Positions 19,909 through 57,440 of a stretch of DNA of 64,000 nucleotides are shown here, piece by piece (the stretch's first letter is position 1; every line of letters begins with the position of its first letter). This stretch comes from Pegea sp. RAD2-039. Taxonomy: Eukaryota; Chordata; Thaliacea; Salpida; Salpidae. Both the position numbers and the translations under genes were made by a program. The notes beneath the pieces were generated by a model. The model was given only the letters and a program-made list of their open reading frames with translations, was not told the DNA's origin and made no database searches. The stretch lies in the NCBI GenBank assembly GCA_034620365.1, contig JAQGEQ010000080.1, forward strand, positions 372,001-436,000. The letters run 5' to 3'.

Positions 19909-19924
19909 AAGAGTCAACAAAAAA

Positions 19925-21319: not shown

Positions 21320-21360
21320 TCATCCTTCTTCGCGTTTTATTTAATAAATAAATAAATAAA

Positions 21361-30499: not shown

Positions 30500-32149
30500 G
30501 TAATCAAAGCACTTTTCTATTTCTCTAAAATTAGGTTAAAATATAAATTTGAAATTTTTTTTGTTAATAACTGAAAATAAATTACTTATTACATGTGTAT
30601 ATAATAGCTTATGGAATAATAATATTAAGAATTATTTTAAAAGTTTTATATAACATTCGAAAATTTATATTTTCGTTTATTGTTTGCTTAATGTCTTAAA
30701 ATGAAAGTAAAATCAAAAAAGTTTAATAAAACAAAATATAGATATCTCTATGAGTTTAACTCTTTTTATAGTCACTACAATAACTCCCGAAAAAACGTTT
30801 AGGTATGAAAGCATAAGCAGTTTTGGTTGTAAAAAAGTAAATTTAGCTTTAATCCTTATTTACTTATTCGTAATTTGAAAGTACACAATATTTTGATTAG
30901 AACAAGTTTTTTTTGAACTTTGATCACCTGTGTGGTTTTTTACTTTATTTTTAGATATAGATTATAGCTTATTAGTTTGATTTGTTGTTCGTAATAGATC
31001 ATAAATTATAATCTCCAAAATAAGTGAACAAAAGCATTATTGATTCAACAATTAATATTTGATTTTAAACGAAATTAAAGTCTTCATAGTTTTTCTATTG
31101 TCGAAAAGAAATTAATGTTTCAATTAGCAACGATATGCCTTTTTCAAATTTCATTTTAATATCCTTTGTCACAGAATAGACTTCTTTATTAAAAAAGAGA
31201 AGTTAAAAACTGATAATGATTCGACTTAATTTTCAAAATTCAATCGTATAATTTAACAGAGCTGTTAAAAGCAAATACAAATAAAAGAATACATTAATTT
31301 TTGTTTTATAATTTCTACACAAACAAAAATTAAAAACTAACGATCATTCACATGTTTGTTTACTGATTTATGAGTTTATATAACAATTTTCAATGAAACT
31401 TTTGAAAAGTTAAACCGAAAGTAAAATTTTATTTCTTTTAGATTATTTTATCTTGAAATTTGATGATATATATACATTTAAACTAATAACAAAAAAGTAT
31501 CTTGAATCGCGTTTTTAATTTACAAAACAATTATTTTCTACAAAAACGATATTAAAACTCATTAAAACATTCAAGTTCTGTTATAGCTTATTAATAGTTT
31601 TATATCAAGGATTTTCTTTAAAACAAAACAACAAATTTAGAAATTATTTGTAGTACATCATAGTTCATCTATTTAATAATACTTACAAAACATTTTCGAG
31701 TATCTGATTAACGCAATAGATTTTCTGCTTTTACAAACATTTTCAAAATGAAATGTGAACTTCCATGTAGTTTGAAGACTAAATATTAAAAATATATTGT
31801 TCTATTATTCAAAAAAATTAGAACTTAGGCTTTGTAAGCATAAGATTTTATCAATCTGAAAGTTAATCTAAAGTTTATTTTTGGGAATTAGTGACAGTTT
31901 AAAAAAAATTTCATGTAATAATTGATTTACACTATAAAAAAATATAGTTTAGTTTGAAACTATCAAAACGCTTGTATAAAAAAACAACTTATGTCAAAGT
32001 ATTCGAACTTTAAATTCTAGATACGCTTTTCATTCTGTTTATAAAAATTTGACCGCTATTAAAAATTCTATCTTAGAGTTTAAAAATAATTAATGTGTTT
32101 GCAGTAACAATCTTGTAAAAAATTACATTCAAAAAGTAAACATACTTTA
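30500..32149. other. AT-rich intergenic left of the tandem array
   Basis: No gene or repeat was recognised. It is the left flank of the macrosatellite. Homology with the array becomes visible from about 32.15-32.3 kb. Confidence 0.5.
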
Positions 32150-34624
32150 GAAATACATGATAATTTATGAACATTCAATTTCAAGATGACTATGGTGAAA
32201 TAGTGAAATCAATTATGCAAATTAGATTGATTGACCTTAGTTTAATAAGACTAACCACATACTCATTAAAACCTCCCAGATGTATATAAAAATTAAACAA
32301 AAAAATTTTTTTGAAAATATTCAGGTGTCAAAAATAGCGCTATTTCTGAAAATTTTTATTTTAACATCTTATCTCGGACAACTTTTTTTGTATCATTTTA
32401 ACATTTTCATTTAAACTGTAAGATAAAATAAGATTAAACCAATTACCAATAATTAATGGTTAACTTAATGTAAACTAAACTGTAAACAAAATTATAGATT
32501 ATAGCAATTATATCCAGTCTTAATCACCTTGGTTTCATCATGTTTTTAATGCAACTTTTTAACATAATTCTGGAAAGGCTCTGGCGCACCTTGGCTTGAG
32601 TGTATATAAATTAAAGAAAGATAATACAAAGGTTCAAAAGTTTCCGAAATTTAAGTTATTTAACTCTGAGGTGATTATTCTCTTTAAAGTTGTTCATCAT
32701 CGAAGGAATTTGAACGAAGTTACATTTAGGATTTTAAAAGTTTATTTGGTGACATCAGCAAATAGGACCTTCTGAGCTTGATTCTCATTAATCAATATTT
32801 ATTTAAATGAGCCATCCTTTAAATTGGGTCTTCAATTTCCGACAGGTTCATTTTATTAAGAAAAAAATTCAAATCCTTAATCGCTTTAGAAGATTCTTAC
32901 TAAACATGAAAATAAATAAACATATTTATGAAGATTCTTATCTTAACAAATCTGTAAGAAGATCGGAAGAAACTAATTATAATAATAATAACCATAATAT
33001 TTATTACAATAGACAAAAGGGCATCATTTTCTTTTATAACTTTAAATAAAAATTTGTTAAACATTGCATGAACTTTACTCTTAAAAATTTATTTTATTGG
33101 TTTTAGCTAAGCATTCACCACATTCATTTGCTTTATTAGAGTCATTTTCCAATATGTTCTCATTAAACAAAAGAGTAAACGACTGGAAAAGTACTTAGAA
33201 ACTAAAACAATTTCAAATACTTGTAAGCCTCATTAAATTGAATTTGTATCTAGCCTTATTGAAAGAGACAAGTTCTTGCCCCGTTTTTTTTACTATACCC
33301 AGTTAACATTCAACAATAAAAGAGTTGTAAAGTTTTTCAAAAATAAGGATATAAAGTTTATAATTCCAATTTTAGATGCTTTACAAAATATCTATTTAGG
33401 CAAAAAATTCAAATTAAATTCTAATTAAAAAAGATGGTTAAATTTTTAAATACTTGATTCAAACTTCAAATTTACTATTGTACTGAAAAAAAGATTTTCT
33501 TTTTCAAAATTTCTTTGTTAACCGAAAAATAAATTACATTTTGTTGTATTATTATGTACATTTTGATCTAAATCTTCGAAAAACAATTCACCAAACTGAT
33601 TAAAAAGCCATAATTTACCACAAGTAACTTTGATTTGTTTTCAAAACACTCATGAAGATTTATTTTTACTTATTTAAAATTGTTTATTGATTTTTTTATT
33701 CTCAATTTATACTAATTTATTGTTAGATTGTAATTGTATATTTGTTTATCGAAAATCATGTTTTACTTGAAATTATTAAATAAATTTGTTTTATGTCTAG
33801 TTACCAGAAAACAATTTTTCCTATCAAATGATAATTTAAACAGATTTATTTATGTTGGTAAACATTAAAATATGCCTTAATTAATAAGTATAAATAGTTT
33901 AACTTAATACTTTAAGATTTTAGATATGCTCGATACATAAACCTATTAGAACAATTCAAAAAAATAAAAATTTAGTTATAGAGATATTTTGACAAAAATT
34001 ATTAATTTTTGAAGTTATTATTTATCTCATGAAGGAAAATTTATTTTTCATCCTTATGGCAATAAGACATATACTTTCACTAACTATTTCTTAGTAAATT
34101 TTTAACAAAATTATGAATTTTTTTTAATGGCTGTTGAAAAAAAACATTCATACTTTTGAATCATCTATATATTTTCCTAAACTTTAAAAATAGTTCTTAA
34201 TTTTTAATTGCTATTCATTTTCAAAGTTTTTATAACATCTTCTATTATTTTTCTAAGTATATAACTTTTTATTCAAAATGTTTATAGTGGAATGTTGTTT
34301 AGTCTTAGTTTAGTTTTTGTTTTGGAGCATTGGTAAATTTTGAAATTTTTCAAAAAAGATCTTTCAATTCTCCAATCAACATATATATTTGAAAAAGGAA
34401 TGTTATGAGGTACAAAATGTAAGTTCACTTTTGTTACTTTTTAGTTTAGTGTGAAATCATAACTAAAAAATCTTTTCAATGAAATTTTTTATGAAAACAA
34501 CAAGAAATAATTTATAAGTAATTAGATATTAGTCTAATATTATCTTCTGCATATCTGTAACAACTATTTGTAAAGCAATACCACCCCTTAAAGAAATTGA
34601 TTATTTAAAAAGTTTCTAATTGTT
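32150..34624. repeat. Array unit 0: partial, diverged left edge
   Basis: It aligns with the body of later units but is clearly diverged, and it lacks the roughly 620-base block found before the next marker in the central units. It shares sequence states with the right-edge unit (for example CAAAAAGCCATAATTTACCA at 55285) that the central units have lost. The left boundary is approximate. Confidence 0.8.
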
Positions 34625-37600
34625 CCAGTTTATTTATCATGAAATGTTCAGTAATTTCAATTGTTTTGTGGTCCAGATGTTGATATTTATAAATTGCTAC
34701 AAAATAAGAATGAAACTTTGGTTTGTTTGATGAATTACTACAAAAACGTAAGCAGTTTGCACTAAGATCAAATAATAACGTCATTTTTATAGGCAAATTT
34801 CCATTAAAAATTGAGGAAACAAGGATCACAAGATGAGTCCTCCAAAAAATAGTCTTCTACTAAATCTTGCAAGGCATTAAGAGAGCAAAACGTTTAAGGA
34901 GAAAACAAACTAAAACAAATTAAAGTTAAATTTGGAGAGAAAAATTTAGTTCATCATTAATCTACTCAGTTCTTCAGAAAGATTACAAACGTTTGGATGA
35001 TTAGGTATGAATTTTTATTATCAAATTTAAATTTATATCAGTTTATCATGCTATGTTTATTATGCTGAAGACTCAAATACTTACAGCAGATGCTGAGGGC
35101 TAACATTCTTCTAGCAGATGATGAGGACTCACTTACTTACAGAAGATTCTGAGGACTCACTTGCTTCTAGCAGATGTTGAGGACTCACTTGCTTACAGAA
35201 GATTCTGAGGACTCACTTGCTTCTAATAGATGCTCAGGACCCATATGCTTCTAGCAGATGCTAAGGAATCATTTTCTTCAAGTAGATGATGAGGATTTAC
35301 TTGCATCTAACATATGCTGATGAGTAACTTGTTTCTAACAGATGCTGAGGACTCACTTGAATTCAAGCAGAAGCTGAGATCTCACTTGCTTCTCGCAGAT
35401 TTTAAGGATTTACTTGCTGGTAGAAGTTGCTAAACACTCAGTTTTTTCAGCAGAACCTAGCGTCTCACTTGCTTCTAGCAGATGCTAACAACTTTCTAGC
35501 TTTTAGCAGATGGTAAGATCAAGTGAAGTATATCAAATGATAAATATCAAGTGATAAAGATTAGGTGGGGAAGATCAGAAGAAGAAGATCAAATGATAAA
35601 AATCAGCTGATTGGTAGTTAAATATTGTCTTATATGTGGCATTTTTGTTTTTGTATTTCAATAAATCGTTTGCAGCTGAAAGCTTTTCACAAAATTGTTT
35701 AATACTGCTGGAGACAATCCAATTTTATATTTACAAAATTTTTATTAATTAATTTCGGTGATAAGTCCTATTACTGATTATTTCATGTTGTTTTCATCAG
35801 TCGTAAAATTTCTCTAAAGTTTTAAATTAATTTGAAATCTTACAAACCAATTACTAATAAAGGTTTGTTGATTTATGATGAATTAAATAAATGAATATAA
35901 TCAGCACATTCCAAATTAGTTTGCAATCTATAATAGTTTCGTCTTTGGATAAATAAAGATATTTTCGTTTGAAGAAGAATACAAATACAGAGATTATCTC
36001 AAATACACCATGTGTTATTTGTTTAATTATACTAATAAAACTTTTGTGAGTTAAGATTACTTGCAATTCTAACCTCGTTCCATAAACATTTTCGAAAGGA
36101 GTTTTGTATTCCCTTTTAATTCTGAAACAAACTATACCAATCGAGATTTAAAGGTTTTTGAAGTCGTGCTTTGTACTATTAGCATATCTGTCAAATTAAA
36201 ATCAAGATGAGAATTGTTTTCAAAAATGACATTAGTTTTATATAAATGTTTTTTTAATAAATGAAGCATACGAGAAACAAACTAATGTTAAGTTTGAAAA
36301 GGGGCAAATACCTTATCTTATTTTAAGATAAAATTTATATAAAAAGTAAACGAAACTTTAGAAGTTTACATGTTTTTGAGCAGTAAAGGTAACTCTGATA
36401 AAATATAGATATCGAAATTACAAATTAGAATGATCGAATTCAATTTAAAAAGAAATTTCTGTAATAAACCTTTAAATGTTTAAAAAAAATGCATAAAGTT
36501 TTAAAAAACTTCTACTTCTCAAAAAAGCGCTATTTTCAAAATTTTTATCTTTTTACACAACAACTTCTCTCACACAACCTCTTTTGTCAGTATTCTGTTG
36601 ATAAAAAATTGTTAAACAATTAATGATTGAAGGAAAATTAAAATAAAAAAAGATTAAAAATATTAAATAAATCTAATAAAGTAGGATAGAATTTTCTAGC
36701 ATATTTGTTAACAATAGTAACCTTAAAACCACTCTTATTCAACTTGGCAGTTTCTGGTTTTTTCAAGCAACTCTATAACTAATCTCTTATGAAGCTATTT
36801 CTACATTTTAGATTAGTCTAAATATGAACAAATTAGTTGGTTTAGTCAAAGCAGTTAATGTAGAGGATTAAACATTCCGAAATTCATTTCTAAATACACA
36901 GTAATTCTATATATTTTTTTTTGTATTATCTAAGCAAACATCACAATCTATATCTGTAATGGCGTCGATTTTAAATGTTTTTTATCCAAAGAAATAGTAA
37001 ACGATCAAAATATATTCAAATGCTTCTAAGCCTTCCTAAATTGAATTTATATCCAACCTTTTTCAAATGGACAAGTTCACGGCAGATTTTGTACAATACT
37101 CAATTAACATTTAACAAAAAAAGAGTTTTACAGTTTTTCTAAAATCAGGATACAAAGCTTATAATTCCATTTTATATGCTTTAGATAAGATTTATTTAAG
37201 CATGATATCCAAAATGAAATCCTAATTAATAAGATGATTAAATTTTTAGATACTTGATAAAACCTTTAAATGTAATGTTGTAATGAGAGGAAAAGAAGTT
37301 TTTTTTTCAAATTTTCTTTTATAACTGAAAACTTTAATTTTGTTATATTATTATGTAGATTTTGATCTAAATCTTCAAAAAACATTACCCCAAACTGTTC
37401 AAAACCATAATTTACCAGGATAAACTTGGACTTATTTTCAAAACACTCATGGAAATTTATTTTTACTTTGCTGAACTTGTTTATTTTATTTTATCTTTTA
37501 AATTTTTGAATATTTATTTACTGTTAGATTTTCAATATTTATTTAACCAAATTCATGTCTTATAGAAGTTAGTTAAACATTTTGTTTTATGTCTAGTTAA

Positions 37601-38993
37601 CAGAAAACAATTTTTGTAATCAAATGATAATCTAAACAATTTTATTTATGTTGTCAAACATTAAAAAATGGCTTAATTAATAAATAAAAATTGTTTAACT
37701 TAATACTTTAAGATTTAAAATATGCTTGATCAATAAATTTATTAGAATAGTTCAAACCAAATAGAATTTAGTTATTTAGATATTTTTATAAAAATTTATT
37801 AACTTTTGAAATTATTATTTATCTTCATAATGAAAAGTTTATCTTTCATTATTATGGCAATATAACATATGTTTTCACTAACTATTTTTTATTATTTTTG
37901 CAACAAAATTACGAATTCTTTTTACTGGCTGTTGAAAAAAATATCATACTCTGGAAGCATTAAGTTATTTTCCTAAAATAAAAAAAAAATTTTAATTTTG
38001 AATTACAAATTAATTGAAATTTTTATTAACATCTCTTGTTTGTTTTTAGTATATAACTTTTTATTTAAAGTATTTATAGTTGAACCTTGGTAAATTTTGA
38101 TATTTTTCAAAAAACATCTTTCTATTCTCCTTTCATCAAAATCTCTTTGAATAGAGGAATGTTATGAGGTACAAAAAGTAAGTTCACCTGTGTTTCTTTT
38201 TAGGTTAGTGTGAATTCATAACTTAAAGTTATAATTTTTCATGAAAACAATAGGAACTAATTTAAAAGTAATTAATTATTAGTCTAATATTTTATTTCTG
38301 TACAAAATAAGTGTAAACACTAATAACTTAAATAAATTACAAAAGTACTATTTAAAAATCTATTTCAAAAAAAACATAAGATAAGCTTTTGATATTTTGC
38401 TTACTAGGGTGTGATGGTTTTAACTTCTGTAGACTAAAGTTCATTGAATAGAAGATTTAGACCGTACCGTATTTATCAAGATAAAATTATCATTAATCAA
38501 CTAAAGCTTAACAGAAAAAATATGCATTGCAACAAGAATTCATATTGGTATTTTGTTTACAAGATCTCAAATTTCTATAAATTGTCTTTTTATTTAGATA
38601 CCCAAAATGATGATTGTATTTTTAGTTCAGACTAGCTACAAGAATCTAAAAATTTCTGTAAGTATTGAAAAACTTTGATATTTCTTAGGTTAGTTACATA
38701 CTAATAAAACTTAATTAACCTATTTTAGTTTCTTTTATCTTTTAAAAGTTTAATTGAAGTGCTTATATATCTACTAACTTGTAAATTTGAAAAAATTAAA
38801 ATATTCATTAATTGTAAGTCAGAACCAAACCACTTTTAACAATATCTATAACTAACAAACTTCTGTAAGTTTATTAAAATTGTTAATATTTTTATATTAA
38901 GCAAATTAAATCTTTTCAATGCTCCTAAACTACAATCTGTAAAGTAGTAGCACCTCTTGAAGAAATAAATTATTTATAATATTTTCATTTGTA
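34625..38993. repeat. Array unit 1
   Basis: A 4369-base unit with 28-bp minisatellite (about 35084-35515), 14-bp minisatellite (about 35517-35612), body, and the 620-base block containing the 63-codon frame at 38444-38635 (initiation would be TTG; first ATG at codon 27). Confidence 0.9.
35084..35515. repeat. 28-bp minisatellite (type example, unit 1)
   Basis: About 15 copies of a 28-base unit, typically TTCTAGCAGATGCTGAGG followed by ACTCACTTGC, with alternate variants such as TTACAGAAGATTCTGAGG. Equivalent arrays occur near 39.45, 43.81, 48.18, 48.96, 53.27 and 56.10 kb. The length is not a multiple of three, so it is not a protein repeat. Confidence 0.9.
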
Positions 38994-41900
38994 CCAGTTT
39001 ATTTATCATGAAATGTTCAGCAATGTAAATTGTTTTGTGGTCCAGATGTTCATATTTATAAATTGCAACAAAATAAGAATGAAACTTTGGTTTGTTTGAT
39101 GAATTACTACAAAAACGTAAGCAGTTTTCACTAAGATCAAATAATAACGTCATTTTTATAGGCAAATTTCTATTGAAAATTGAGGAAACAAGGATCACAA
39201 GATGAATCTTCCAAAAAATACTCATCTACTAAATCTTACAAGGCATTAAAAGAGCAAAACGTTTCAGGAGAAAACAAACTAAAACAAATTAAAGTTAAAT
39301 TTGGAGAGAAAAATTTAGTTCATCATTAATCTACTCAGTTCTTCAGAAAGATTACAAACGTTTGGATGATTAGGTATGAATTTTTAATTTCAAATTTAAA
39401 TTTATATCAGTTTATCATGCTATGTTTATTATGCTGAAGACTCAATTACTTACAGCAGATGCTGAGGGCTAACATTCTTCTAGCAGATGATGAGGACTCA
39501 CTTACTTACAGAAGATTCTGAGGACTCACTTGCTTCTAGCAGATGTTGAGGACTCACTTGCTTACAGAAGATTCTGAGGACTCACTTGCTTCTAGAAGAC
39601 ACTCAGGACCCATATGCTTCTAGCAGATGCTAAGGAATCATTTTCTTCAAGTAGATGATGAGGATTTACTTGCATCTAACATATGCTGACGAGTAACTTG
39701 TTTCTAACAGATGCTGAGGACTCACTTGAATTCAAGCAGAAGATGAGATCTCACTTGCTTCTCGCAGATTTTAAGGATTTACTTGCTGCTAGAAATTGCT
39801 AAACACTCAGTTTTTCCAGCAGAACCTAACGTCTCACTTGCTTCTAGCAGATGCTAACAACTTTCTTGCTTTTAGCAGATGGTAAGATCAAGTGAAGTAT
39901 ATCAAATGATAAATATCAAGTGATAAAGATTAGGTGGGGAAGATCAGAAGAAGAAGATCAAATGATAAAAATCAGCTGATTGGTAGTTAAATATTGTCTT
40001 ATATGTGGCATTTTTGTTTTTGTATTTCAATAAATCGTTTGCAGCTGAAAGCTTTTCACAAAATTGTTTAATACTGCTGGAGACAATCCAATTTTATATT
40101 TACAAAATTTCTATTAAATGATTTCTGTTAGTAGTCCCATTACTGATTATTTCATGTTGTTTTCATCAGTCGTAAAATTTCTCTAAAGTTTTAAATTAAT
40201 TTGAAATCTTACAAACCAATTACTAATAAAGGTTTGTTGATTTATGATGAATTAAATAAATGAATATAATCAGCACATTCCAAATTAGTTTGCAATCTAT
40301 AATAGTTTCGTCTTTGGATAACTAAAGATATTTTCGTTTGAAGAAGAATACAAATACAGAGATTATCTCAAATACACCATGTGTTATTTGTTTAATTATA
40401 CTAATAAAACTTTTGTGAGTTAAGATTACTTGCAATTCTAACCTCGTTCCATAAACATTTTCGAAAGGAGTTTTGTAGTCCCTTTTAATTCTGAAACAAA
40501 CTATACCAATCGAGATTTAAAGGTTTTTGAAGTCGTGCTTTGTACTATTAGCATATCTGTCAAATTAAAATCAAGATGAGAATTGTTTTCAAAAATGACA
40601 TTAGTTTTATATAAATGTTTTTTTCATAAATGAAGCATACGAGAAACAAACTAATGTTAAGTTTGAAAAGGGGCAAATACCTTATCTTATTTTAAGATAA
40701 AATTTATATAAAAAGTAAACAAGACTTTAGAAGTTTACATGTTTTTGAGCAGTAAAGGTAACTCTGATAAAATATAGATATCGAAATTACAAGTTAGAAT
40801 GATCGAATTCAATTTAAAAAGAAATTCATATAATAAACCTTTAAATGCTTAAAAAAAATGCATAAAGTTTTAAAAAACTTCTACTTCTCAAAAAAGCGCT
40901 ATTTTCAAAATTTTTATCTTTTTACACAACAACTTCTCTCACACAACCTATTTGTCAGTATTCTGTTGATAAAAAATTGTTAAACAATTAATGATTGAAG
41001 GAAAACTAAAATAAAATAAGATTAAAAATATTAAATAAATCTAATAAAGTAGGATAGAATTTTGTAGCATATTTGTTAACAATAGTAACCTTAAAACCAC
41101 TCTTATTCAACTTGGCAGTTTCTGGTTTTTTCAAGCAACTCTATAACTAATCTCTTATGAGGCTATTTCTACATTTTAGATTAGTCTAAATATGAACAAA
41201 TTAGTTGGTTTAGTCAAAGCAGTTAATGTAGAGGATTAAACATTCCGAAATTCATTTCTAAATACACAGTAATTCTATATTTTTTTTTTGTATTATCTAA
41301 GCAAACATCACAATCTATATCTGTAATGGCGTCGATTTTAAATGGTTTTTTATCCAAAGAAATAGTAAACGATCAAAATATATTCAAATGCTTCTAAGCC
41401 TTCCTAAATTGAATTTATATCCAACCTTTTTCAAATGGACAAGTTCACGGCAGATTTTGTACAATACTCAATTAACATTTAACAAAAAAAGAGTTTTATA
41501 GTTTTTCTAAAATCAGGATACAAAGTTTATAATTCCATTTTAGATGCCGTAGATAATATTTATTTAGGCATGATATCCAAACAAAATTCTAATTAATAAG
41601 ATGATTAAATTTTTAAATACTTGATAAAACCTTTAAATGTAATGTTGTAATGAGAGGAAAAGAATTTTTTCAAATTTTCTTTTATAACCGAAAACTTTAA
41701 TTTTATAATATTATTATGTAGATTTTGATCTAAATCTTCAAAAAACAATTCCCCAAACTGTTCAAAAACCATAATTTACCATGAGAAACTTGGACTTATT
41801 TTCAAAACACTCATGGAAATTTGTTTTTACTTTGCTGAACTTGTTTATTTTATTTTATCTTTTAAATTTTTGAATATTTATTTATTGTTAAATTTTCAAT

Positions 41901-43356
41901 ATTTATTTAACCAAATTCATGTCCTATAGAAGTTAGTTAAACATTTTGTTTTATGTCTAGTTAACAGAAAACAATTTTTGTAATCAAATGATAATTTAAA
42001 CAATTTTATTTATGTTGTCAAACATTAAAAAATGGCTTAATTAATAAATAAAAATTGTTTAAATTAATACTTTAAGATTTAAAATATGCTTGATCAATAA
42101 ATTTGTTAGAATAGTTCAAACCAAATAGAATTTAGTTATTTAGATATTTTTATAAAAATTTATTAATTTTTGAAATTATTATTTATCTTCATAATGAAAA
42201 GTTTATCTTTCATTATTATGGCAATATAACATATGTTTTCACTAACTATTTTTTATTATTTTTGCAACAAAATTACGAATTCTTTTTACTGGCTGTTGAA
42301 TAAAATATCATACTTTGGAAGCAGAAGTTATTTTCCTAAACTTAGAAAAAATTTTAAATTTGGGAATTACAAATTAATTGAAATTTCTATTAACATCTCT
42401 TGTTTGTTTTTAGTATATAACTTTTTATTTAAAGTATTTATAGTTGAACCTTGGTAAATTTTGATATTTTTCAAAAAACATCTTTCTATTCTCCTTTCAT
42501 CAAAATCTCTTTGAATAGAGGAATGTTATGAGGTACAAAAAGTAAGTTCACTGATGTTTCTTTTTAGGTTAGTGTGAAACCATAACTTAAAATTCTAATT
42601 TTTCATGAAAACAATAGGAACTAATTTAAAAGTAATTAATTATTAGTCTAATATTTTCTTTTCTGTATAAAATAAGTGTAAACACTAATAACTTAAAGAA
42701 ATTACAAAATTACTATATAAAAATATATTTAAAAAAAAATAGGATAAGCTTTTGATAATTTGCTTACTAGGGTGTGATGGTTTTAACTTCTGTAGACTAA
42801 AGTTCATTGAATAGAAGATTTAGACCATACCGTATTTATCTAGATAAAATTATCATTAATCAACTAAAGCTTAACAGAAAAAATATGCATTACAACAAGA
42901 ATTCATATTGGTATTTTGTTTACAAGATCTCAATATTCATTAAAATGTCTTTTTATTTAGATACCCAAAATGATGATTGTATTTTTAGTTCAGACTAGCT
43001 ATAAGAATCTAAAAATTTCTGTAAGTATTGAAAAACTTTGATATTTCTTAGGTTAGTTACATACTAATAAAACTTAATTAACCTATTTTAGTTTCTTTTA
43101 TCTTTTAAAAGTTTAATTGAAGTGCTTATATATCTACTAACTTGTAAATTTGAAAAAATTAAAATATTCATTTATTGTAAGTCAGAACCAAACCACTTTT
43201 AACAATATCTATAACTAACAAACTTCTGTAAGTTTATTAAAATTGTTAATATTTTTATATTAAGCAAATTAAATCTTTTCAATGCTCCTAAACTACAATC
43301 TGTAAAGTAGTAGCACCTCTTGAAGAAATAAATTATTTATAAATTTTTCATTTGTA
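38994..43356. repeat. Array unit 2
   Basis: A 4363-base unit, very close to units 1 and 3. Minisatellites lie at about 39450-39885 and 39885-39985. The 63-codon frame is at 42807-42998. On the minus strand an 83-codon frame (39225-38974) begins with ATG, but neighbouring units carry it with altered starts. Confidence 0.9.
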
Positions 43357-46300
43357 CCAGTTTATTTATCATGAAATGTTCAGCAATGTAAATTGTTTTG
43401 TGGTCCAGATGTTCATATTTATAAATTGCAACAAAATAAGAATGAAACTTTGGTTTGTTTGATGAATTACTACAAAAACGTAAGCAGTTTGCACTAAGAT
43501 CAAATAATAACGTCATTTTTATAGGCAAATTTCCATTGAAAATTGAGGAAACAAGGATCACAAGATGAGTTCTACAAAAAATAGTCTTCTACTAAATCTT
43601 ACAAGGCATTAAGAGAGCAAAACGTTTAAGGAGAAAACAAACTAAAACAAATTAAAGATAAATTTGGCGAGAAAAATTTAGTTGATCATTAATCTGCTCA
43701 GTTCTTCAGAAAGATTACAAACGTTTGGATGATTAGGTATGAATTTTTAATTTCAAATTTAAATTTATATCAGTTTATCATGCTATGTTTATTATGCTGA
43801 AGACTCAAATACTTACAGCAGATGCTGAGGGCTAACATTCTTCTAGCAGATGATGAGGACTCACTTACTTACAGAAGATTCTGAGGACTCACTTGCTTCT
43901 AGCAGATGTTGAGGACTCACTTGCTTACAGAAGATTCTGAGGACTCACTTGCTTCTAATAGATGCTCAGGACCCATATGCTTCTAGCAGATGCTAAGGAA
44001 TCATTTTCTTCAAGTAGATGATGAGGATTTACTTGCATCTAACATATGCTGACGAGTAACTTGTTTCTAACAGATGCTGAGGACTCACTTGAATTCAAGC
44101 AGAAGCTGAGATCTCACTTGCTTCTCGCAGATTTTAAGGATTTACTTGCTGGTAGAAGTTGCTAAACACTCAGTTTTTTCCAGCAGAACCTAGCGTCTCA
44201 CTTGCTTCTAGCAGATGCTAACAACTTTCTTGCTTTTAGCAGATGGTAAGATCAAGTGAAGTATATCAAATGATAAATATCAAGTGATAAAGATTAGGTG
44301 GGGAAGATCAGAAGAAGAAGATCAAATGATAAAAATCAGCTGATTGGTAGTTAAATATTGTCTTATATGTGGCATTTTTGTTTTTGTATTTCAATAAATC
44401 GTTTGCAGCTGAAAGCTTTTCACAAAATTGTTTAATACTGCTGGAGACAATCCAATTTTATATTTACAAAATTTCTATTAAATGATTTCTGTTAGTAGTC
44501 CCATTACTGATTATTTCATGTTGTTTTCATCAGTCGTAAAATTTCTCTAAAGTTTTAAATTAATTTGAAATCTTACAAACCAATTACTAATAAAGGTTTG
44601 TTGAATTATGATGAATTAAATAAATGAATATAATCAGCACATTCCAAATTAGTTTGCAATCTATAATAGTTTCGTCTTTGGATAACTAAAGATATTTTCG
44701 TTTGAAGAAGAATACAAATACAGAGATTATCTCAAATACACCATGTGTTGTTTGTTTAATTATACTAATAAAACTTTTGTGAGCTAAGATTACTTGCAAT
44801 TCTAACCTCGTTCCATAAACATTTTCGAAGGGAGTTTTGTAGTCCCTTTAAATTGTGAAACAAACTATACCAATTGAGCTTTAAATGTTTTTGAAGTCGT
44901 GCTTTGTACTATTAGCATATCTGTCAAATTAAAATCAAGATGAGAATTGTTTTCAAAAATGACATTAGTTTTATATAAATGTTTTTTTAATAAATGAAGC
45001 ATACGAGAAACAAACTAATGTTAAGTTTGAAAAGGGGCAAATACCTTATCTTATTTTAAGATAAAATTTATATAAAAAGTAAACAAGACTTTAGAAGTTT
45101 ACATGTTTTTGAGCAGTAAAGGTAACTCTGATAAAATATAGATATCGAAATTACAAGTTAGAATGATCGAATTCAATTTAAAAAGAAATTCATATAATAA
45201 ACCTTTATATGCTTAAAAAAAATGCATAAAGTTTTAAAAAACTTCTACTTCTCAAAAAAGCGCTATTTTCAAAATTTTTATCTTTTTACACAACAACTTC
45301 TCTCACACAACCTATTTGTCAGTATTCTGTTGATAAAAAATTGTTAAACAATTAATGATTGAAGGAAAACTAAAATAAAAACAGATTAAAAATATTAAAT
45401 AAATCTAATAAAGTAGGATAGAATTTTGTAGCATATTTGTTAACAATAGTAACCTTAAAACCACTCTTATTCAACTTGGCAGTTTCTGGTCTTTTCAAGC
45501 AACTCTATAACTAATCTCTTATGAGGCTATTTCTACATTTTAGATTAGTCTAAATATGAACAAATTAGTTGGTTTAGTCAAAGCAGTTAATGTAGAGGAT
45601 TAAACATTCCGAAATTCATTTCTAAATACACAGTAATTCTATATATTTTTTTTTGTATTATCTAAGCAAACATCACAATCTATATCTGTAATGGCGTCGA
45701 TTTTAAATGTTTTTTATCCAAAGAAATAGTAAACGATCAAAATATATTCAAATGCTTCTAAGCCTTCCTAAATTGAATTTATATCCAACCTTTTTCAAAT
45801 GGACAAGTTCACGGCAGATTTTTTACAATACTCAATTAACATTTAACAAAAAAAGAGTTTTATAGTTTTTCTAAAATCAGGATACAAAGTTTATAATTCC
45901 ATTTTAGATGCCGTAGATAATATTTATTTAGGCATGATATCCAAACAAAATTCTAATTAATAAGATGATTAAATTTTTAAATACTTGATAAAACCTTTAA
46001 ATGTAATGTTGTAATGAGAGGAAAAGAATTTTTTTCAAATTTTCTTTTATAACCGAAAACTTTAATTTTATAATATTATTATGTAGATTTTGATCTAAAT
46101 CTTCAAAAAACATTACCCCAAACTGTTCAAAAACCATAATTTACCAGGAGAAACTTGGACTTATTTTCAAAACACTCATGGAAATTTATTTTTACTTTGC
46201 TGAACTTGTTTATTTTATTTTTTCTTTTAAATTTTTGAAAATTTATTTATTGTTAGATTTTCAATATTTATTTAACCAAATTCATGTCTTATAAAAGTTA

Positions 46301-47713
46301 GTTAAACATTTTGTTTTATGTCTAGTTAACAGAAAACAATTTTTGTAATCAAATGATAATTTAAACAATTTTATTTATGTTGTCAAACATTAAAAAATGG
46401 CTTAATTAATAAATAAAAATTGTTTAACTTAATACTTTAAGATTTAAAATATGCTTGATCAATAAATTTATTAGAATAGTTCAAACCAAATAGAATTTAG
46501 TTATTTAGATATTTTTATAAAAATTTATTAATTTTTGAAATTATTATTTATCTTCATAATGAAAAGTTTATCTTTCATTATTATGGCAATATAACATATG
46601 TTTTCACTAACTATTTTTTATTATTTTGCAACAAAATTATGAATTCTTTTTACTGGATGTTGAAAAAAATATCATACTTTGGAAGCATTAAGTTATTTTC
46701 CTAAACTTAAAAAAAATTTGAATTACAAATTATATTAAAATTTTTATTAACATCTCTTGTTTGTTTTTAGTATATAACTTTTTATTTAAAGTATTTATAG
46801 TTGAACCTTGGTAAATTTTGATATTTTTCAAAAAACATCTTTCTATTCTCCTTTCATCAAAATCTCTTTGAATAGAGGAATGTTATGAGGTACAAAAAGT
46901 AAGTTCACCTGTGTTTCTTTTTAGGTTAGTGTGAATTCATAACTTAAAATTCTAATTTTTCATGAAAACAATAGGAACTAATTTAAAAGTAATTAATTAT
47001 TAGTCTAATATTTTATTTCTGTACAAAATAAGTATAAACACTAATAACTTAAAGAAATTACAAAAGTACTATTTAAAAATCTATTTCAAAAAAAACATAA
47101 GATAAGCTTTTGATAATTTGCTTACTAGGGTGTGATGGTTTTAACTTCTGTAGACTAAAGTTCATTGAATAGAAGATTTAGACCGTACTGTATTTATCAA
47201 GATAATATTATCATTAATCAACTAAAGCTTAACAGAAAAAATATGCATTACAACAAGAATTCATATTGGTATTTTGTTTACAAAATCTCAAATTTCATTA
47301 AATTCTCTTTTTATTTAGATACCCAAAATGATGATTGTATTTTTAGTTCAGACTAGCTACAAGAATCTAAAAATTTCTGTAAGTATTGAAAAACTTTGAT
47401 ATTTTTTAGGTTAGTTACATACTAATAAAACTTAATTAACTTATTTTAGTTTCTTTTATCTTTTAAAAGTTTAATTGAAGTGCTTATTTATCTACCAACT
47501 TGTAAATTTGAAAAAATTAAAATATTCATTCATTGTAAGTCAGAACCAAACCACTTTAAACAATATCTATAACTAACAAACTTCTGTAAATTTATTAATA
47601 TTGTTATTATTTTTATATTAGGCAAATCAAATCTTTTCAATGCAATTAAACTACCATTGTAAAGTAGTAGCACCTCTTGAAGAAATAAATTATTTATAAA
47701 GTTTTTATTTGTA
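43357..47713. repeat. Array unit 3
   Basis: A 4357-base unit with the same order of parts. Minisatellites lie at about 43813-44345 and the 63-codon frame at 47165-47356. It differs from unit 2 mostly by scattered substitutions and one- or two-base indels in A/T runs. Confidence 0.9.
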
Positions 47714-50700
47714 CCAGTTTATTTATCATGAAATGTTCAGCAATGTAAATGGTTTTATTGGTTCAGATGTCATAATTTATAAATTGCTACAAAATTAGAA
47801 TGAAACGTTTGTTTGTTTGAGTAATTAAAACAAAAACGTAAGCAATTTTCACTAGGACCAAATAAATACTAATATCATTTTTATAGACAAATTTTCATTG
47901 AGAATTTAGGAACGAAAGATCAGATGATGAGTCTTCTAAAAAATGGTCAACTACTTAATCTTACAAGGTATTAAAAGAGCAAAATGTTTGAGGAGAAAAC
48001 AAACTAAAACAAAGGAAAGTTAAATTTGGAGAGAAAAATTTAGTTCATCAATAATCTATTCAATTCTTCAGAGAGATTACAAACGTTTGGATGATTAGGT
48101 ATGAATTTTGATTTCAAATTTAAATTTATGTCAGTTTATCATGCTATGTTTATTATGTTGAATTTATTATGTTTATTATGTTACTCAATTGCTTGCAGCA
48201 GATGATGAGGACTCACTTTTTTCTAGCTGATGCTGAGGACTTACTTGCTTCTACCATATTCTGAGGACTCACTTACTTTTAGCAGAACCTAACAACTTTG
48301 TTGCTTTTAGCAGATGCTAAGATCAGGTGAAGTAGATCAAATTATTAATATCAAGTAATAAAGATTACGTGATGAAAATAGAAATCGATATATAAAGATC
48401 AGGTGATGAAGATCGAGTGGAAAAGATCAGGTGATAATGGTTAGATGATGAAAATCAAATGATCAAAATGATCTGATGAACATAAGATTAGTCGTAAATG
48501 TTGTCTTGTTTATGGCATTTTTGTTTTTGCATATTGACAAATCGTTTGTAGCTGAACACTTTTAGATGAATTGCTAAAAAATAAGAATGAAACTTTGGTT
48601 TGTTTGATGAATTACTACAAAATCGTAAGCAGTTTTCACTAAGATCAAATAATAACATCATTTTTATAGGCAAATTTCCATGGAAAAAGGAGGAAACAAG
48701 GATCCCAAGATGAATCTTCCAAAAAATGGCCAGCTACTAAATATTACAAGGCATTAAAAGAGCAAAACGTTTGAAGAGAAAACAAATTAAAACAAATGAA
48801 AGTTAAATTTGGCGAGAAAAATTTAGTTCATCAATAATCTCTTCAATTCTTCTGAGAGATTATAAAATTTTGAATGATTAGGTACGAATTTTTTATTTCA
48901 ATTTTATGTTTATATGAGTTTATCATGCTATGTTTATTATGCTGAAGACTCAATTACTTACAGCAGATGCTGAGGGCTCACATTCTTCTAGCAGATGATG
49001 AGGACTCACTTACTTACAGAAGATTCTGAAGACTCACTTGCTTCTAGCAGATGTTGAGGACTTACTTGCTTACAGAAGATTCTGAGAACTCACTTGCTTT
49101 TAAAAGATGCTCAGGACCCATATACTTCTAGCAGATGCTAAGGAATCATTTTCTTCAAGTAGATGATGAGGATTTACTTGCATCTAACATATGCTGACGA
49201 GTAACTTGTTTCTAACAGATACTAAGGACTCACTTGAATTCAAGCAGAAGCTGAGGTCTCACTTGCTTCTCGCAGATTTTAAGCATTTACTTGCTTCTAG
49301 AAGTTGCTGAACACTCAGTTTTTCCAGCAGAACCTAACGTCTCACTTGCTTCTAGCAGATGCTAACAACTTTCTTGCTTTTAGCATATGGTAAGATAAAA
49401 TGAACTATATCAAATGATAAATATCAAGTGATAAAGATTAGGTGGGGAAGATCAGAAGAAGAAGATCAAATGATAAAAATCAGCTGATTGGTAGTTAATT
49501 ATTGTCTTATATGTGGCATTTTTGTTTTTGTATTTCAATAAATCGTTTGCAGCTGAAAGCTTTTCACAAAATTGTTTAATACTGCTGGAGACAATCCAAT
49601 TTTATATTTACAAAATTTCTATTAAATGATTTCTGTTAGTAGTCCCATTACTGATTATTTCATGTTGTTTTCATCAATCGTAAAATTTCTCTAAAGTTTT
49701 AAATTGATTTGAAGTCTTACAAACCAATTACTAATAAAGGTTTGTTGAATTATGATGAATTAAATAAATGAATATAATCAGCGCATTCCAAAATAGTTTG
49801 CAATCTATAAAAATTTCGTCTTTGGATAAATAAAGATATTCTCTTTCGAAGAAGAATACAAATACAGATATTATCTCAAATACACCATGTGTGGTGTGTT
49901 TAATTATACTAATATAACTTTTGTGAGTTAAGATTACTTGCAATTCTAACCTCGTTCCATAAACATTTTCGAAGGGAGTTTTGTAGTCCCTTTAAATTGT
50001 GAAACAAACTATACCAATTGAGCTTTAAATGTTTTTGAAGTCGTGCTTTGTACTGTTAGCATATCTTTCGATTTAAATTAAAGAGGAGAATTGTTTTCAA
50101 AAATGACATTAGTTTTATATAAATGTTTTTTTAATAATTGAAGCATACGAGAAACAAACTAATGTAAAGTTTAAAAAGGGGCAAATACCTTATCTTATTT
50201 TAAGATAAAATTTATATAAAAAGTAAACAAGACTTTAGAAGTTTACATGTTTTTGAACACTTAGGGTAACTCTGATAAAATATAGATATCGAAATTACAA
50301 GTTAGAATGATCGAAATCAATTTAATAAGAAATTCATATAATAAACCTTTAAATTTTTAAAAAAATGAATTAAGTTTTAAAAAACTTCTACTTCTCAAAA
50401 AAGCGCTATTTTCAAAATTTTTATCTTTTTACACAACAACTTCTCTCAAACAACCTCTTTTGTCAGTATTCTGTTGATAAAAAATTTCTAAACAATTAAT
50501 GATTTAATGCAAATTAAATTAAAATAAGATTAAAAATATTAAATAAATCTAATAAAGTAGGATAGAATTTTCTAGCATATTTGTTAACAATAGTAACCTT
50601 AAAACCAATCTTATTCAACTTGGCAGTTTCTGGTCTTTTCAAGCAACTCTATAACTAATCTCTTATGAAGCTCTTTCTACATTTTAGATTGGTCTAAATA

Positions 50701-52867
50701 TGAACAAATTAGTTGGTTTAGTCAAAGCAGTTAATGTAGAGGTTTAAACTTTCCGAAATTCATTTCTAAATACACAGTAATTCTATATATTTTTTTTTGT
50801 ATTATCTAAGCAAACATCACAATCTATATCTGTAATGGCGTCGATTTTAAATGTTTTTTATCCAAAGAAATAGTAAACGATCAAAATATATTCAAATGCT
50901 TCTAAGCCTTCCTAAATTGAATTTATATCCAACCTTTTTCAAATGGACAAGTTCACGGCAGATTTTTTACAATACTCAATTAACATTTAACAAAAAAAGA
51001 GTTTTATAGTTTTTCTAAAATCAGGATACAAAGTTTATAATTCCATTTTAGATGCCGTAGATAATATTTATTTAGGCATGATATCCAAACAAAATTCTAA
51101 TTAATAAGATGATTAACTTTTTAAATACTTGATAAAACCTTTAAATGGAATGTTGTAATGAGAGGAAAAGAATTTTTTTCAAATTTTCTTTTATAACCGA
51201 AAACTTTAATTTTATAATATTATTATGTAGATTTTGATCTAAATCTTCAAAAAACATTACCCCAAACTGTTCAAAAACCATAATTTACCATGAGAAACTT
51301 GGACTTATTTTCAAAACACTCATGGAAATTTATTTTTACTTTGCTGAACTTGTTTATTTTATTTTTTCTTTTAAATTTTTGAAAATTTATTTATTGTTAG
51401 ATTTTCAATATTTATTTAACCAAATTCATGTCTTATAGAAGTTAGTTAAACATTTTGTTTTATGTCTAGTTAACAGAAAACAATTTTTGTAATCAAATGA
51501 TAATTTAAACAATTTTATTTATGTTGTCAAACATTAAAAAATGGCTTAATTAATAAATAAAAATTGTTTAACTTAATACTTTAAGATTTAAAATATGCTT
51601 GATCAATAAATTTATTAGAATAGTTCAAACCAAATAGAATTTAGTTATTTAGATATTTTTATAAAAATTTATTAATTTTTGAAATTATTATTTATCTTCA
51701 TAATGAAAAGTTTATCTTTCATTATTATGGCAATATAACATATGTTTTCACTAACTATTTTTTATTATTTTTGCAACAAAATTATGAATTCTTTTTATTG
51801 GTTGTTGAAAAATAAATTCATACTTTAGAAGTAGAAGTTATTTTCCTAAACATAAAAAAAATTTTAAATTTTGAATTACAAATTAATTGAAATTTTTATT
51901 AACATCTCTTGTTTGTTTTTAGTATATAACTTTTTATTTAAAGTATTTATAGTTGAACCTTGGTAAATTTTGATATTTTTCAAAAAACATCTTTCTATTC
52001 TCCTTTCATCAAAATATCTTTGAATAAAGGAATGTTATGAGGTACAAAAAGTAAGTTCACTGATGTTTCTTTTTAGGTTAGTGTGAATTCATAACTTAAA
52101 ATTCTAATTTTTCATGAAAACAATAGGAACTAAATTAAAAGTAATTAATTATTAGTCTAATATTTTCTTTTCTGTATAAAATAAGTGTAAACACTAATAA
52201 CTTAAAGAAATTACAAAAGTACTATATAAAAATATATTTAAAAAAAAATATAGGATAAGCTTTTGATAATTTGCTTACTAGGGTGTGATGGTTTTAACTT
52301 CTGTAGACTAAAGTTCATTGAATAGAAGATTTAGACCGTACCGTATTTATCAAGATAAAATTATCATTAATCAACTAAAGCTTAACAGAAAAAATATGCA
52401 TTACAACAAGAATTCATATTGGTATTTTGTTTACAAGATCTCAAATTTCTATAAATTGTCTTTTTATTTAGATACCCAAAATGATGATTGTATTTTTAGT
52501 TCAGACTAGCTACAAGAATATAAAAATTTCTGTAAGTATTGAAAAACTTTGATATTTTTTAGGTTAGTTACATACTAATAAAACATAATTAACCTATTTT
52601 AGTTTCTTTTATCTTTTAAAAGTTTAATTGAAGTGCTTATTTATCTACCAACTTGTAAATTTGTAAAAATTAAAATATTCATTCATTGTAAGTCAGAACC
52701 AAACCACTTTAAACAATATCTATAACTAACAAACTTCTGTAAATTTATTAAAATTGTTATTAATTTTATATTAGGCAAATCAAATCTTTTCAATGCAATT
52801 AAACTACCATCTGTAAAGTAGTAGCACCTCTTGAAGAAATAAATTATTTATAATGTTCTCATTTGTA
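47714..52867. repeat. Array unit 4, with extra 787-bp internal duplication
   Basis: This unit is 5154 bases long because the segment from the CCAGTTT marker through the minisatellites occurs twice, offset by 787 bases (AATTGCT anchor at 47782 and 48569). The first copy has a short 28-bp array (about 48180-48310) and a longer 14-bp array (about 48310-48480). The second resembles those of units 1-3. The 63-codon frame is at 52318-52509. Confidence 0.88.
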
Positions 52868-55800
52868 CCAGTTTATTTATCATGAAATGTTCAGCAATGT
52901 AAATTGTTTTGTGGTCCAGATGTTGATATTTATAAATTGCTACAAAATAAGAATGAAACTTTGGTTTGTTTGATGAATTACTACAAAAACGTAATCAGTT
53001 TTCACTAAGATCAAATAATAAAGTCATTTTTATAGGCAAATTTCCATTGAAAGTTGAGGAAACAAGGATCACAAGATGAGTCCTCCAAAAAATAATCTTC
53101 TACTAAATCTTACAAGGCATTAAGAGAGCAAAACGTTTAAGGAGAAAACAAATTATAACAAATGAAATTCTGCAGAGAGATTACAAGCTGTAGGAAGATT
53201 AGGTACGAATTGTTGATTTCAAATTGTAGTTTAAATCAGTTTATCATGCTATGTTTATTATGCTGAGGAGTTAACTAAATCTAGCAGATCCTGAGTACTC
53301 ACTTGCTTCTAGCAAATTCTGAGTACTCAGTTGCTTCTGGCAGATGCTCAGGACTCATTTGGTTGTAGCTGATGCTTAGGACTTACCTGCTTCTACCGTA
53401 TTCTGAGGACTTACTTGCTTCTTGCAGAATCTAACGACTTTCTTTCTTTTAGCAGATGCTAAGATCAAATGAAGTAGATCAAATGATGAATATCAAGTAA
53501 TAAAGTTTACATGACAAAGATCACATGAAGAAGATCGAGAAATGAAGATCAGGTGATGAAGATCGACTGGAAAACATCAGGTAATGAATATAAAGTTCCG
53601 TTAATGAAGCTCAGATGAAGATAATCTGATGATGAAAATCAGCTGATGAAGATCACATTAGTAGTTAAATGCTGTCTTGTATGTGACTTTTTGGTTCTTG
53701 CATTTGGACCAATTGTTTGTAGCTGAATGCTTTTCAGAGAATTTTCTAATATTGTTGGAGACTTTCCATTTTTATACCAAAAATTTCTCCTAAAAGATTT
53801 TAGTTGTTATTTTGATTACTGATTATTTCATCATGTTTTCATAAATCATAAAATTTTGCTAAAGTTTCACTTCGAATTGAAATCTTACAAACCTATTACT
53901 AATAGAGATTGGTTGAATTTTGATATATTAAATAAATGATTATAATTAGCACAATCCACATTAGTTTGATATCTATAATAATTTCGTTTTCGGAGATCTT
54001 AAGAGATTTTTTTTTCGAAGAAGAATGCAAATATAGATATTATCGCAAATTCACCATGTGTTATGTGTTTAATTATGCTAATAAAACTTTTGTGAGTTGA
54101 GATTACCTACAATTCTAACCTCGTTCAATAAATATTTTCGTAAGTAGTTTTGTAATCCCTCTTAGTTTTGAAACAAACTATACCAATTGAGCTTTAAATG
54201 TTTTTGAAGTCGTGGTTTGTACTCTTAGCATATCTCTTAATTGAATCTTATGATGAGAATTGTTTTCAAAAATGACTTTAGTTTTTTATAAATGTTTATG
54301 TGATAATTGAAGCATACGAGAAACAAACTAATGTAAAGTTTGAAAGTAGCAAATACTTCTTCTTTTTTAAGATAAGATTTTAATAAGAAGTAATAGAGAA
54401 TTTAGAAATTTATAAGTTTTTGATCACTTAAGGTAACTGTGATAAATTAGAAATAGAAAATACAAATTAAAATGATCGAAATCAATTTGATAAGGCATTT
54501 ATACAATAAACTTTTAAATGTGTGAAAAACAATAAATAAAATTTGAGAAAATTTCCACTTCTAAAATAAAGCGCTATTTTCAAAATTATTATCTTTTTTA
54601 ACAACAACTTTTCACAGACAACCTCTTTTGTCAGTATTCTGTTGAAAAAAAATTATCAATCAATTAATGATTCAATGGAAACTGAAATAAAATAAGATTA
54701 AAAATAATAAATCAATATAATCAAGTAGGCTGGAATTTTGGAGCATACTTGTTAACAATATTAACATTATAACCACTTTTTCTCAACTTGGTTGTTTCTT
54801 GTCTTTTTAAACAACTTTATAACTAGTCTCTTATGAAACTCTGTATACTTTTAAGGTTGGTATAAATATTAATAAATTAGTTGATTTAGTCAAAGCAGTA
54901 AATGTAGCTACTTCATACCTTAAAACCTTGTAGGTACTTATTGGACCTTATTCAAATACACAAGTTCTCGGCAAATTTTTTTACAATACTCAGTCAACAT
55001 TCTACAATAAAAGAGTTTTAAAGCTTTTGTCAAAACAGGATATACATTTTTATTTTTCCATTGTAGATGCTATGCATAATATTTGTTTGGGAAAAAATTT
55101 ATAGGTTTCTAATGAAAAAGATGTTTAAATTTCTAATTAATCGATTCAACCTTGAAATGTACTGCAATATTGAGAGAAAAATATTTTTTGTTGTCAAATT
55201 TTCTTTGTTAAAAATAATTTCAATTTTGTTTCATTATTATTTACATTTTTATCTAAATCTTCAAAAAACAATTACCCAAACCGATCAAAAAGCCATAATT
55301 TACCACAAGTGACTTTGACTTGTTTTCAAAACATTCATGGAAATTTATTTTTAGTTAACTGAATTTGTTTATTGATTTTTATTTTTAAATTTATAATATT
55401 AAGTTATATTTAGATCTTCAATATTTATTTATCGAATTTCTTGTTTTAATTGAAGATAGCTAATAATTTTGTTTTATGTGTAGTTACCAGAAAACAATTT
55501 TTCTGATAAAATGATAATTTAAACAATTTATTTATGTTTGTGAACATTAAAATATGCCTTAATAAATAAGTAAAAATTGTTTAACTTGATACTTTAAGAT
55601 TTAAAATATTCTTGATCAATAAATTTTTTAGAATAATTCAAAACAATTAAAATTTAGTTATACAGATTTCTTGGAAAAATTATCAACTTTTGAAGTTATT
55701 ATTCATCTTCTTAATGAAAAGTTTATTTTTCATCATTATGGCAATATAACATATGTTTTCACTAACTATTTTTTATTATTTCTCTAACAAAATTATAAAT

Positions 55801-56096
55801 TTTTTTTATTAGCTTTTGAAAACAAACATTCATGATTTTGAAGTATTAAGATATTTTCCTAAACTTTAAAAAAAGTTTTAAGTTTAGAATTACAATTTTT
55901 GTTGAAGAATTTATTAACATCTTTTTTTATTTTTTTTAGTATATAACTTTTTAGTCAAAGTATTGATAGTTCAATCTGGTAAATTTTGAATTTTTTTATA
56001 GAAGATCTTTCTATTCAACTATCATCAGAATATTGTTGAAAAAAGGAATGTTATGAAGTATAAAATATAAGTTCACTGTTGTTTCTTTTTAGGTTA
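52868..56096. repeat. Array unit 5: diverged
   Basis: It aligns to the other units with many substitutions and indels. It has a shortened 28-bp minisatellite (about 53265-53460) and an expanded 14-bp one (about 53460-53670). It lacks the block with the 63-codon frame and runs straight into minisatellite sequence of the next partial copy near 56097. Confidence 0.82.
53460..53670. repeat. 14-bp minisatellite (longest, unit 5)
   Basis: About 15 imperfect copies of a unit near AGATCAAATGATGA. Shorter versions follow the 28-bp arrays in units 1-4 and a similar long one is in unit 6. The unit is exactly half the neighbouring minisatellite period, but the two share no obvious sequence. Confidence 0.8.
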
Positions 56097-57440
56097 GTTA
56101 CAGATGTTGAGTACTCAGTTGCTTCTAGCAGATGCTAGGGAACTATGTTTCCTAGTAGATGAAGAGGATTCACTTGTTTCTAACATATGCTGACGAGTAA
56201 CTTGCTTCTAGCAGAATCTAACGACTTTCTTGCTTTTAGCAGATGGTAAGATTAAATGAAGTTGATCAAATGATTTATATCAAGTAATAAAGATTACGTG
56301 ATGAAGATCACATGAAGAAAATCGAAATATGAAGATCAGGCGATGAAAACCAAATGATGAAGATCAGGTAATAAATATAAAGTTCAGGCGACGAAGGTCA
56401 GATGAAGAAACTCAAATGATGAAAACCATCTGATGAAGATCTAATTAATAGTTAAATATTGTGTTATATGTGGCATTTTTGTTCTTGCATTTTGAGAAAT
56501 TGTTGGTAGCTGAACGCCTTTCACAAACTTGTCTAATATTGTTCGAGACTTTCCATTTTTTTCTGAGAATTTTCTCTTAAAGGATTTTTGTTGTCATTAC
56601 TATAACTGATTATTTCATGATGTTTTCATCAACCATAAAGTTTCGCTAAAGTTTTAAATCGAATTGAAATCTTACAAACCTGTTACTAATAGAGATTTTT
56701 TGAATTACGATGTATTAAATAAATGATTATCATGAGCACATTTAAAATTACTTTGTAGTCCATTAAAATTTCCTCTTTGGAATATTAAGAGATTTACTTC
56801 CAATTCTAACCTCGTTAAATAACGATTTTCAAAAAGAGTTTTGTAGTCCCTCATAATTTTGAAACTAACTATACCCATCGAGCTTTAAATGTTTTTGAAA
56901 TCGTGCTTCGTACTGTTAGCATACCTTACAATTTAACCTAAAGATGAAAATTGTTTTAAAAATGACTATAGTACTTTATAAATGTTTATGTAATAATTGA
57001 AGCATACGAGAAAAAATCTAATGTAAAGTTTGAAAGTACTTGTCCTGCTTGGTGGCGAAGCGGTTACTACACCTAGCTACAATCTAGCTAGGAAGTACCG
57101 GGTTCGACCCCAGGTGGAGACATATAAAACTCCTGAGAAAAACCATAAAAAACTCCTGAGAATGTGTTTTAGTGAGATGTGCTCTCTTTAGGCATTCATA
57201 TATATAAAAAATAAAATAAAAAAAGTAGCAAATACTTTTTTAAGATAAAGTTAAAATAAAAAGTTAAAGGGACTTTAGAAGCTTACAACTTTTGGTCACT
57301 TAAGTAACTGTAATAAAATATAAAAATGGAAAATACAAATTAGAATGATCGAAATCAATTTAATAAGATATTTATACAATAAAGCTTTAAATGTGTAAAA
57401 AAATGCATAATGTTTGAGAAAACATCCACTTCAAAAATTT
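56097..57440. repeat. Array unit 6: partial right edge
   Basis: It begins within the 28-bp minisatellite, followed by 14-bp repeats (about 56250-56440) and the first part of the unit body. It is interrupted by a SINE at 57039-57221 and fades out soon after 57.42 kb. Confidence 0.8.
57039..57221 (+). mobile_element. tRNA-derived SINE with LINE-like 3' tail
   Basis: The head is tRNA-like: an A box (TGGCGAAGCGG at 57053), an anticodon-arm-like hairpin (CCTAGCT/AGCTAGG) and a consensus B box (GGTTCGACCCC at 57101), the internal RNA polymerase III promoter. A duplicated AAAACTCCTGAGA motif follows, then a stretch (57158-57187) resembling the LINE 3' end at 27537-27566, and an A-rich tail. A six-base repeat AAAGTA flanks it (57033-57038 and 57222-57227). 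Confidence 0.88.

Follow-up and report, generated by a model that had tools for sequence, protein, structure and literature searches.

The window, by which we mean the whole 64,000-nucleotide stretch of Pegea sp. RAD2-039 DNA analysed here, corresponds to positions 372001-436000 of contig C74 (483,145 bp) in a 105.7-Mb assembly of 387 contigs, has a G+C content of 25.5% and contains no N. Between ~31,600 and 57,437 it holds a head-to-tail array of ~4.36-kb units, ~26 kb as assembled, which is bounded by other DNA on both sides within the contig. Self-comparison of the window, proposed as a check in an earlier sequence-only reading of this DNA, gave offset peaks at 4364, 5144, 4369, 9508, 4363 and 8732, confirming the multi-kilobase head-to-tail repetition, and the array edges that this reading had placed at 32150 and 57440 were right to within ~550 bp and 3 bp, respectively.

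To set unit boundaries, one unit was searched by BLAST through the window, and pieces of >150 bp were kept. The successive lengths (start to start or end) are 4369, 4363, 4362, 783, 4321, 2903 and 1337 bp, and are uneven because a 783-bp remnant interrupts the series. All copies lie on the forward strand. Four are full units: U1 (35000-39368; 4369 bp), U2 (39369-43731; 4363 bp), U3 (43732-48093; 4362 bp) and U4 (48877-53197; 4321 bp, with a 45-bp deletion near its end), and their pairwise identities range from 95.39 to 97.36%. The remnant (48094-48876), formed of an old head and a younger tail, lies between U3 and U4. To the right follow an old shortened unit, U5 (53198-56098; ~82% identical to the core), which lacks the last ~1.16 kb of the unit, and an old truncated edge copy, U6 (56101-57437; ~81%). 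At the left lies the oldest copy, U0 (31601-34541), collinear with unit positions ~951-3292, and after it, with ~636 bp of the unit missing in between, a younger unit tail (34559-34999; unit positions 3929-4369; 93% to U1). Of the five full or near-full units reported at first, four are indeed full, the fifth is the shortened U5, and the remnant had gone unmentioned; the order of 28-bp minisatellite, 14-bp minisatellite, AT-rich body and block with a small frame was borne out. Chance is ruled out for the unit matches (E = 0 in an assembly search with the unit body).

The copy number, and whether each copy is real, depend on one assembly of one individual, and a false duplication during assembly would be the corresponding alternative. 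We give it next to no credence, since core copies show 2.6-4.6% divergence from one another and carry distinct indels, edge copies differ by 17-40%, and other DNA lies on both flanks inside the 483-kb contig.

Age of the copies and exchange between them

The copies fall into three tiers of identity, ~60-64%, ~78-83% and 95.4-97.4%, with the youngest in the middle of the array. At the left edge, identity is ~78-80% over 33204-34541 and fades to 60-64% at about 31561/31601-32568; this outermost stretch, to 32568, is 62-64% identical to U1 and 60-63% to U5, and collinear with the unit. A blastn search with U1 returned three collinear left pieces (E 5e-29, 5e-23 and 4e-16), and nhmmer detected 32126-32650 (E 4.7e-16) and, weakly, the outermost 31611-31776 (E 0.0014). 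As background, the next left match to U1 had an E value of 1e-6 and the strongest one past the right end of the array 2e-7, while with U5 as query one non-collinear match reached 4e-10. Judged by these scores, noise from AT-rich DNA is not negligible, yet the collinear left pieces are well above it.

The right edge is 81-83% identical. Old copies are about as far from one another (U0-U5, 80.3%; U5-U6, 81.6%) as from the core (U0-U1, 79.3%; U1-U6, 80.6%; U1-U5, 82.5% and 81.6% in two segments), from which we infer that one lineage of an older array was later amplified again to give the core. The earlier suggestion of an amplification-prone segment fits this history, in which the core multiplied recently among older copies. 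The remnant is likewise composite, with best pieces of its head (48094-48563) 73-78% identical to the six other heads compared and its tail (48566-48876) 85.5-90.4% identical to five other tails, and its junction of old head and younger tail resembles that of the left edge.

Within the four core units there are 55 sites at which two units stand against two, and these support three conflicting groupings (28, 18 and 9 sites). They fall into 19 runs compared with 34.3 expected, and none of 5000 shuffles gave a count as low; this mosaic of shared variants points to exchange or conversion between copies. U3 has 32 of its 46 private variants at positions 4032-4261, and its tail is 83.7-88.5% identical to five other tails, compared with 88.0-96.5% in the ten pairs without it.

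Coding and RNA content of the units

The longest stop-to-stop frames in U1-U4 are 97, 83, 67 and 86 aa, respectively, with shuffle means of 78-81 aa, and of 200 dinucleotide shuffles, 30, 85, 157 and 57 matched or exceeded these lengths; in U2 alone, 13 frames reach at least 48 aa. An intact or decayed tandem gene family, in which each unit once carried a small gene, could be read from the 83-aa minus-strand frame, which U0, U1 and U2 keep open and the remnant retains in part, and from the 97-aa frame of U1, which runs to 86 aa in U4. However, the first is broken in U3 and U4, and its variable columns are spread over codon positions 1, 2 and 3 as 20, 24 and 18, each of 83, with no bias to third positions and no codon-phase constraint. 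The second is cut to 64 aa in U2 and 53 aa in U3, and in U5 and U6 it is either missing or changed. Pfam returned no family for the three stop-free unit frames scanned, although a decayed element protein could escape such a scan. A small coding gene was rejected on these grounds (chance lengths, no phase constraint, no Pfam family), and with no conserved, phase-constrained frame among the copies we regard a tandem protein-gene array as highly improbable. Reading under the ciliate code was also tried and set aside: table 6 gave 77 frames of at least 180 aa, on both strands and overlapping, which by eye is as expected in AT-rich DNA. A search for a nematode spliced-leader word gave 0 matches. 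Splice-like borders were seen by eye near unit position 4155-4369.

An Rfam cmscan of the window found no known family at its gathering score. The earlier suggestion of a multicopy non-coding RNA locus has no support. A permissive cmscan of U2 gave two C/D snoRNA matches, at 22.8 and 16.4 bits compared with gathering scores of 60 and 45. A promoter scan of U2 gave 27 sites where 30.2 were expected; its model is bacterial and uninformative for a eukaryote.

Old-copy divergence is spread along the unit, and no sharply protected block was seen. In two of six pairwise comparisons its scatter exceeds the binomial expectation (U1-U5, p=0.008; U0-U5, p=0.019; both uncorrected); the excess may come from alignment at indels, or it could conceal weak constraint. 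These results bear on another reading, that selection keeps the array as a set of tandem non-coding RNA genes or as a putative chromatin-organising array of the DXZ4 type. The single locus, fixed internal order and homogeneous core would suit it, and mouse Dxz4, in the available part of its description, has units about as long with a tandem repeat inside (PMC3491370). We nevertheless consider it improbable, given the spread of divergence without a sharply protected block, the lack of any Rfam family at gathering score and the U2 snoRNA matches far below threshold. A specific version, reasoned by analogy, has a putative transcribed and copy-number-variable non-coding macrosatellite with a DXZ4-like chromatin role outside mammals, whose frozen minisatellites would be clusters of protein-binding sites; we hold this to be very unlikely.

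Unit body and nested minisatellites

When the 3.8-kb minisatellite-free body was searched against the assembly (8 candidates, all scored), 13 of the 14 matches lay at the array and the other was a 41-bp match on contig C77. Within the limits of this search the body is found at the array locus alone, and therefore the unit cannot be called a dispersed element in this assembly. The whole-assembly search that had been recommended thus turned up no other body locus apart from the 41-bp match, and the earlier label of regional macrosatellite fits multi-kilobase units at one locus. The statement that no family matches the array stands for the unit body and fails for the minisatellites, whose two families also form arrays at other genomic sites. 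The absence of a recognisable transposon or gene in the unit was upheld as far as tested; U6 nonetheless bears a dispersed SINE-like insert of ~184 bp (57041-57224, forward strand). In the search with this insert, for which the best 40 of 759 first-look candidates were scored, 35 of 62 matches were its copies on other contigs, 84-90% identical, and it is abundant genome-wide. It carries what we take to be a tRNA-like B-box word, and ARAGORN found no tRNA anywhere in the window, the insert included.

In U1 the 28-bp minisatellite (35062-35512, forward strand) has 16.1 copies with a 70% match to consensus, and the 14-bp minisatellite (35532-35605, forward strand) has 5.3 copies. TRF gave these same copy numbers in each of U1-U4, and so among full units minisatellite copy number did not change while the whole unit multiplied. 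Between units the 28-bp block is in register at 95.6-99.3% identity. Within a unit the 28-mers are on average 49-57% alike when taken at fixed 28-bp steps, an underestimate owing to small indels (TRF: 69-71% to consensus), and the best pair in each unit is 89-96% alike. Because the 28-mers are unlike within units while the block is alike between them, their decay largely preceded amplification of the unit; as some 28-mers remain 89-96% alike, the minisatellite is not uniformly old. TRF found fewer copies of the 28-bp repeat in the remnant (4.9), U5 (6.5) and U6 (2.6), where the block was probably a site of loss.

Elsewhere in the genome, the 28-bp family forms homogeneous arrays, five of which were sampled on contigs C216, C192 (three) and C197, with 85.8, 45.9, 40.9, 35.6 and 47.7 copies at 90-95%. 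Arrays of the 14-bp family occur at seven loci picked for that repeat (L040-L046) and, by assembly search, on further contigs. A search with the unit including its minisatellites gave at least 335 matches, and among the matches listed all were in the minisatellite part. Both nested minisatellites are local fossils of dispersed families. Within the sequence examined, no 14-bp array (TRF score of at least 80) lay directly beside any of the five sampled 28-bp arrays.

Of the five 28-bp arrays sampled, four have a common flank of up to ~195 bp, always on the same side, where the fifth array reaches the contig end; the conserved stretches of this flank lie at L035:6726-6896, L036:5818-6012, L037:4042-4232 and 6513-6603, and L038:5390-5465. 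The 28-bp array with its flank looks as if it were one dispersed element. This flank, together with the dispersal of both minisatellite families, is what would favour a transposon-derived array, for example one built by tandem insertions of a non-autonomous element with minisatellites. Against this, the unit body is not dispersed, a 260-bp flank piece of one outside array gave no convincing match beside the arrays of the window, and among the best 25 of 57 pairs of inverted arms in U2 the longest (47 and 41 nt) are internal and 70-71% complementary; we consider such an origin exceedingly unlikely.

Two side observations concern these repeats. One copy of the conserved flank, in L037, has no array beside it. 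In L035-L038 and L040-L047, minisatellites with diverse unit lengths (11-36 bp) reuse the words GTTGCTAG, GATGAAGATCA and TGACGTCATCA, which occur twice in all in the arbitrary 10-kb samples L048 and L049 (contigs C1 and C8); the sample is biased, as the remaining loci were either picked for matches to the 28-bp or 14-bp repeat or come from the same contig.

Origin of the array and other features of the region

The array is very probably a single-site, locus-specific and near-neutral macrosatellite of non-coding DNA that evolves by unequal exchange. The array is genuine and unexceptional in kind, and nothing in it indicates a gene, a transposon or a function. Unequal exchange and conversion are the general model for the concerted evolution of tandem DNA. 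Here, ~4.4 kb of AT-rich intergenic DNA, already holding two decayed minisatellites, would have been duplicated head to tail one or more times, after which unequal crossing-over and gene conversion would have acted between units. Such exchange would renew the central units and keep the core alike, while edge units would drift and gain deletions and insertions. The nested minisatellites would be passengers, and the array would be selectively neutral or nearly so. Assembled with flanking DNA at either end, the array is a compact example of ageing in tandem DNA: its edges are old, its core is re-amplified, and the relative timing of two nested levels of repetition can be read from it. Models of concerted evolution can draw on it, but it raises no new question alone.

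Macrosatellites are described, in the available portions of two sources, as tandem arrays of several-kilobase units at one or two places, with variable copy number and a length that can reach hundreds of kilobases (PMC3491370, PMC3018141). The present array has several-kilobase units head to tail in a single place, within the limits of our search. At ~26 kb it is small for a macrosatellite but near the ~35 kb given for mouse Dxz4; these sources give hundreds of kilobases as a possible length and not as a requirement, and copies may have been collapsed in the assembly. In the accessible part of its description, mouse Dxz4 consists of about seven units, each 3.8-5.7 kb long and containing a tandem repeat, and it includes a monomer that is >5% divergent (PMC3491370). 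Mouse Dxz4 and primate DXZ4 share with the array their single-locus head-to-tail units and internal tandem repeat, while the unit here is AT-rich and one mouse Dxz4 monomer is 53.4% GC (same source and part). Of the systems compared, mouse Dxz4 is the closest in form, and the likeness drawn here is one of form. The human macrosatellites RS447, D4Z4, SST1, TAF11-Like and ZAV also have several-kilobase tandem units at one or two locations; as far as the part consulted goes, their copy number differs between people and many are larger than this array (PMC3018141). The rotifer satellites rotiSat1 and rotiSat2 of Brachionus asplanchnoidis are tandem DNA too, in an animal whose genome is small and has a low-variability part that peaks near 25% GC, although in the part of the source available their monomers are 154 and 143 bp and their arrays reach up to a few megabases, unlike the 4.36-kb units at one place found here (PMC8447722). 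Text searches of the literature, in which the array sequence was not used as a query, found no publication on the array.

More striking than the array itself is the abundance of a 14-bp palindrome, TGATGACGTCATCA: the 105.7-Mb assembly has 1,972 copies of it and 0 of its reversed control. The expected number is about 0.17 from base composition or 0.08 from a second-order model, the latter built on the 84 kb of the window plus L048 and L049, where the count of TGACGTCATCA is 0. Among the matches listed, all were on contig C1. Examples lie at L035:54, 1002, 1237, 2646, 9450, 9562 and 9876, L036:805 and 1501, L040:4091 and 4375, and L047:1354, 2042 and 9362. Flanks of 25 bp on both sides were unlike at 14 sampled sites in L035-L049. 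The word includes TGACGTCA, which we take to be a CRE/ATF site, and a literature search for the palindrome gave no match. L035 holds a possible Ig-like gene (C2-set match in Pfam, below cut-off), and some of the palindrome sites fall within or close to its exon-like DNA.

To the left of the array, the window contains a reverse-transcriptase fragment at 20040-20456 (Pfam RVT_1, E 1.7e-13), and this fragment and related DNA, over 19296-21320 and 26970-27594, are shared with L039, L041, L042 and L044 at 67-81%. On the minus strand, an open frame of 120 aa with recurring QHVGYHKIE-like words encloses a 27-bp tandem repeat at 23464-23634 (6.3 copies, 88%). Two weak hints suggest a ciliated or flagellated eukaryote, probably an animal: TTAGGG arrays were seen on four contigs, and a frame of L048 has a match to the sperm-tail repeat (SHIPPO).
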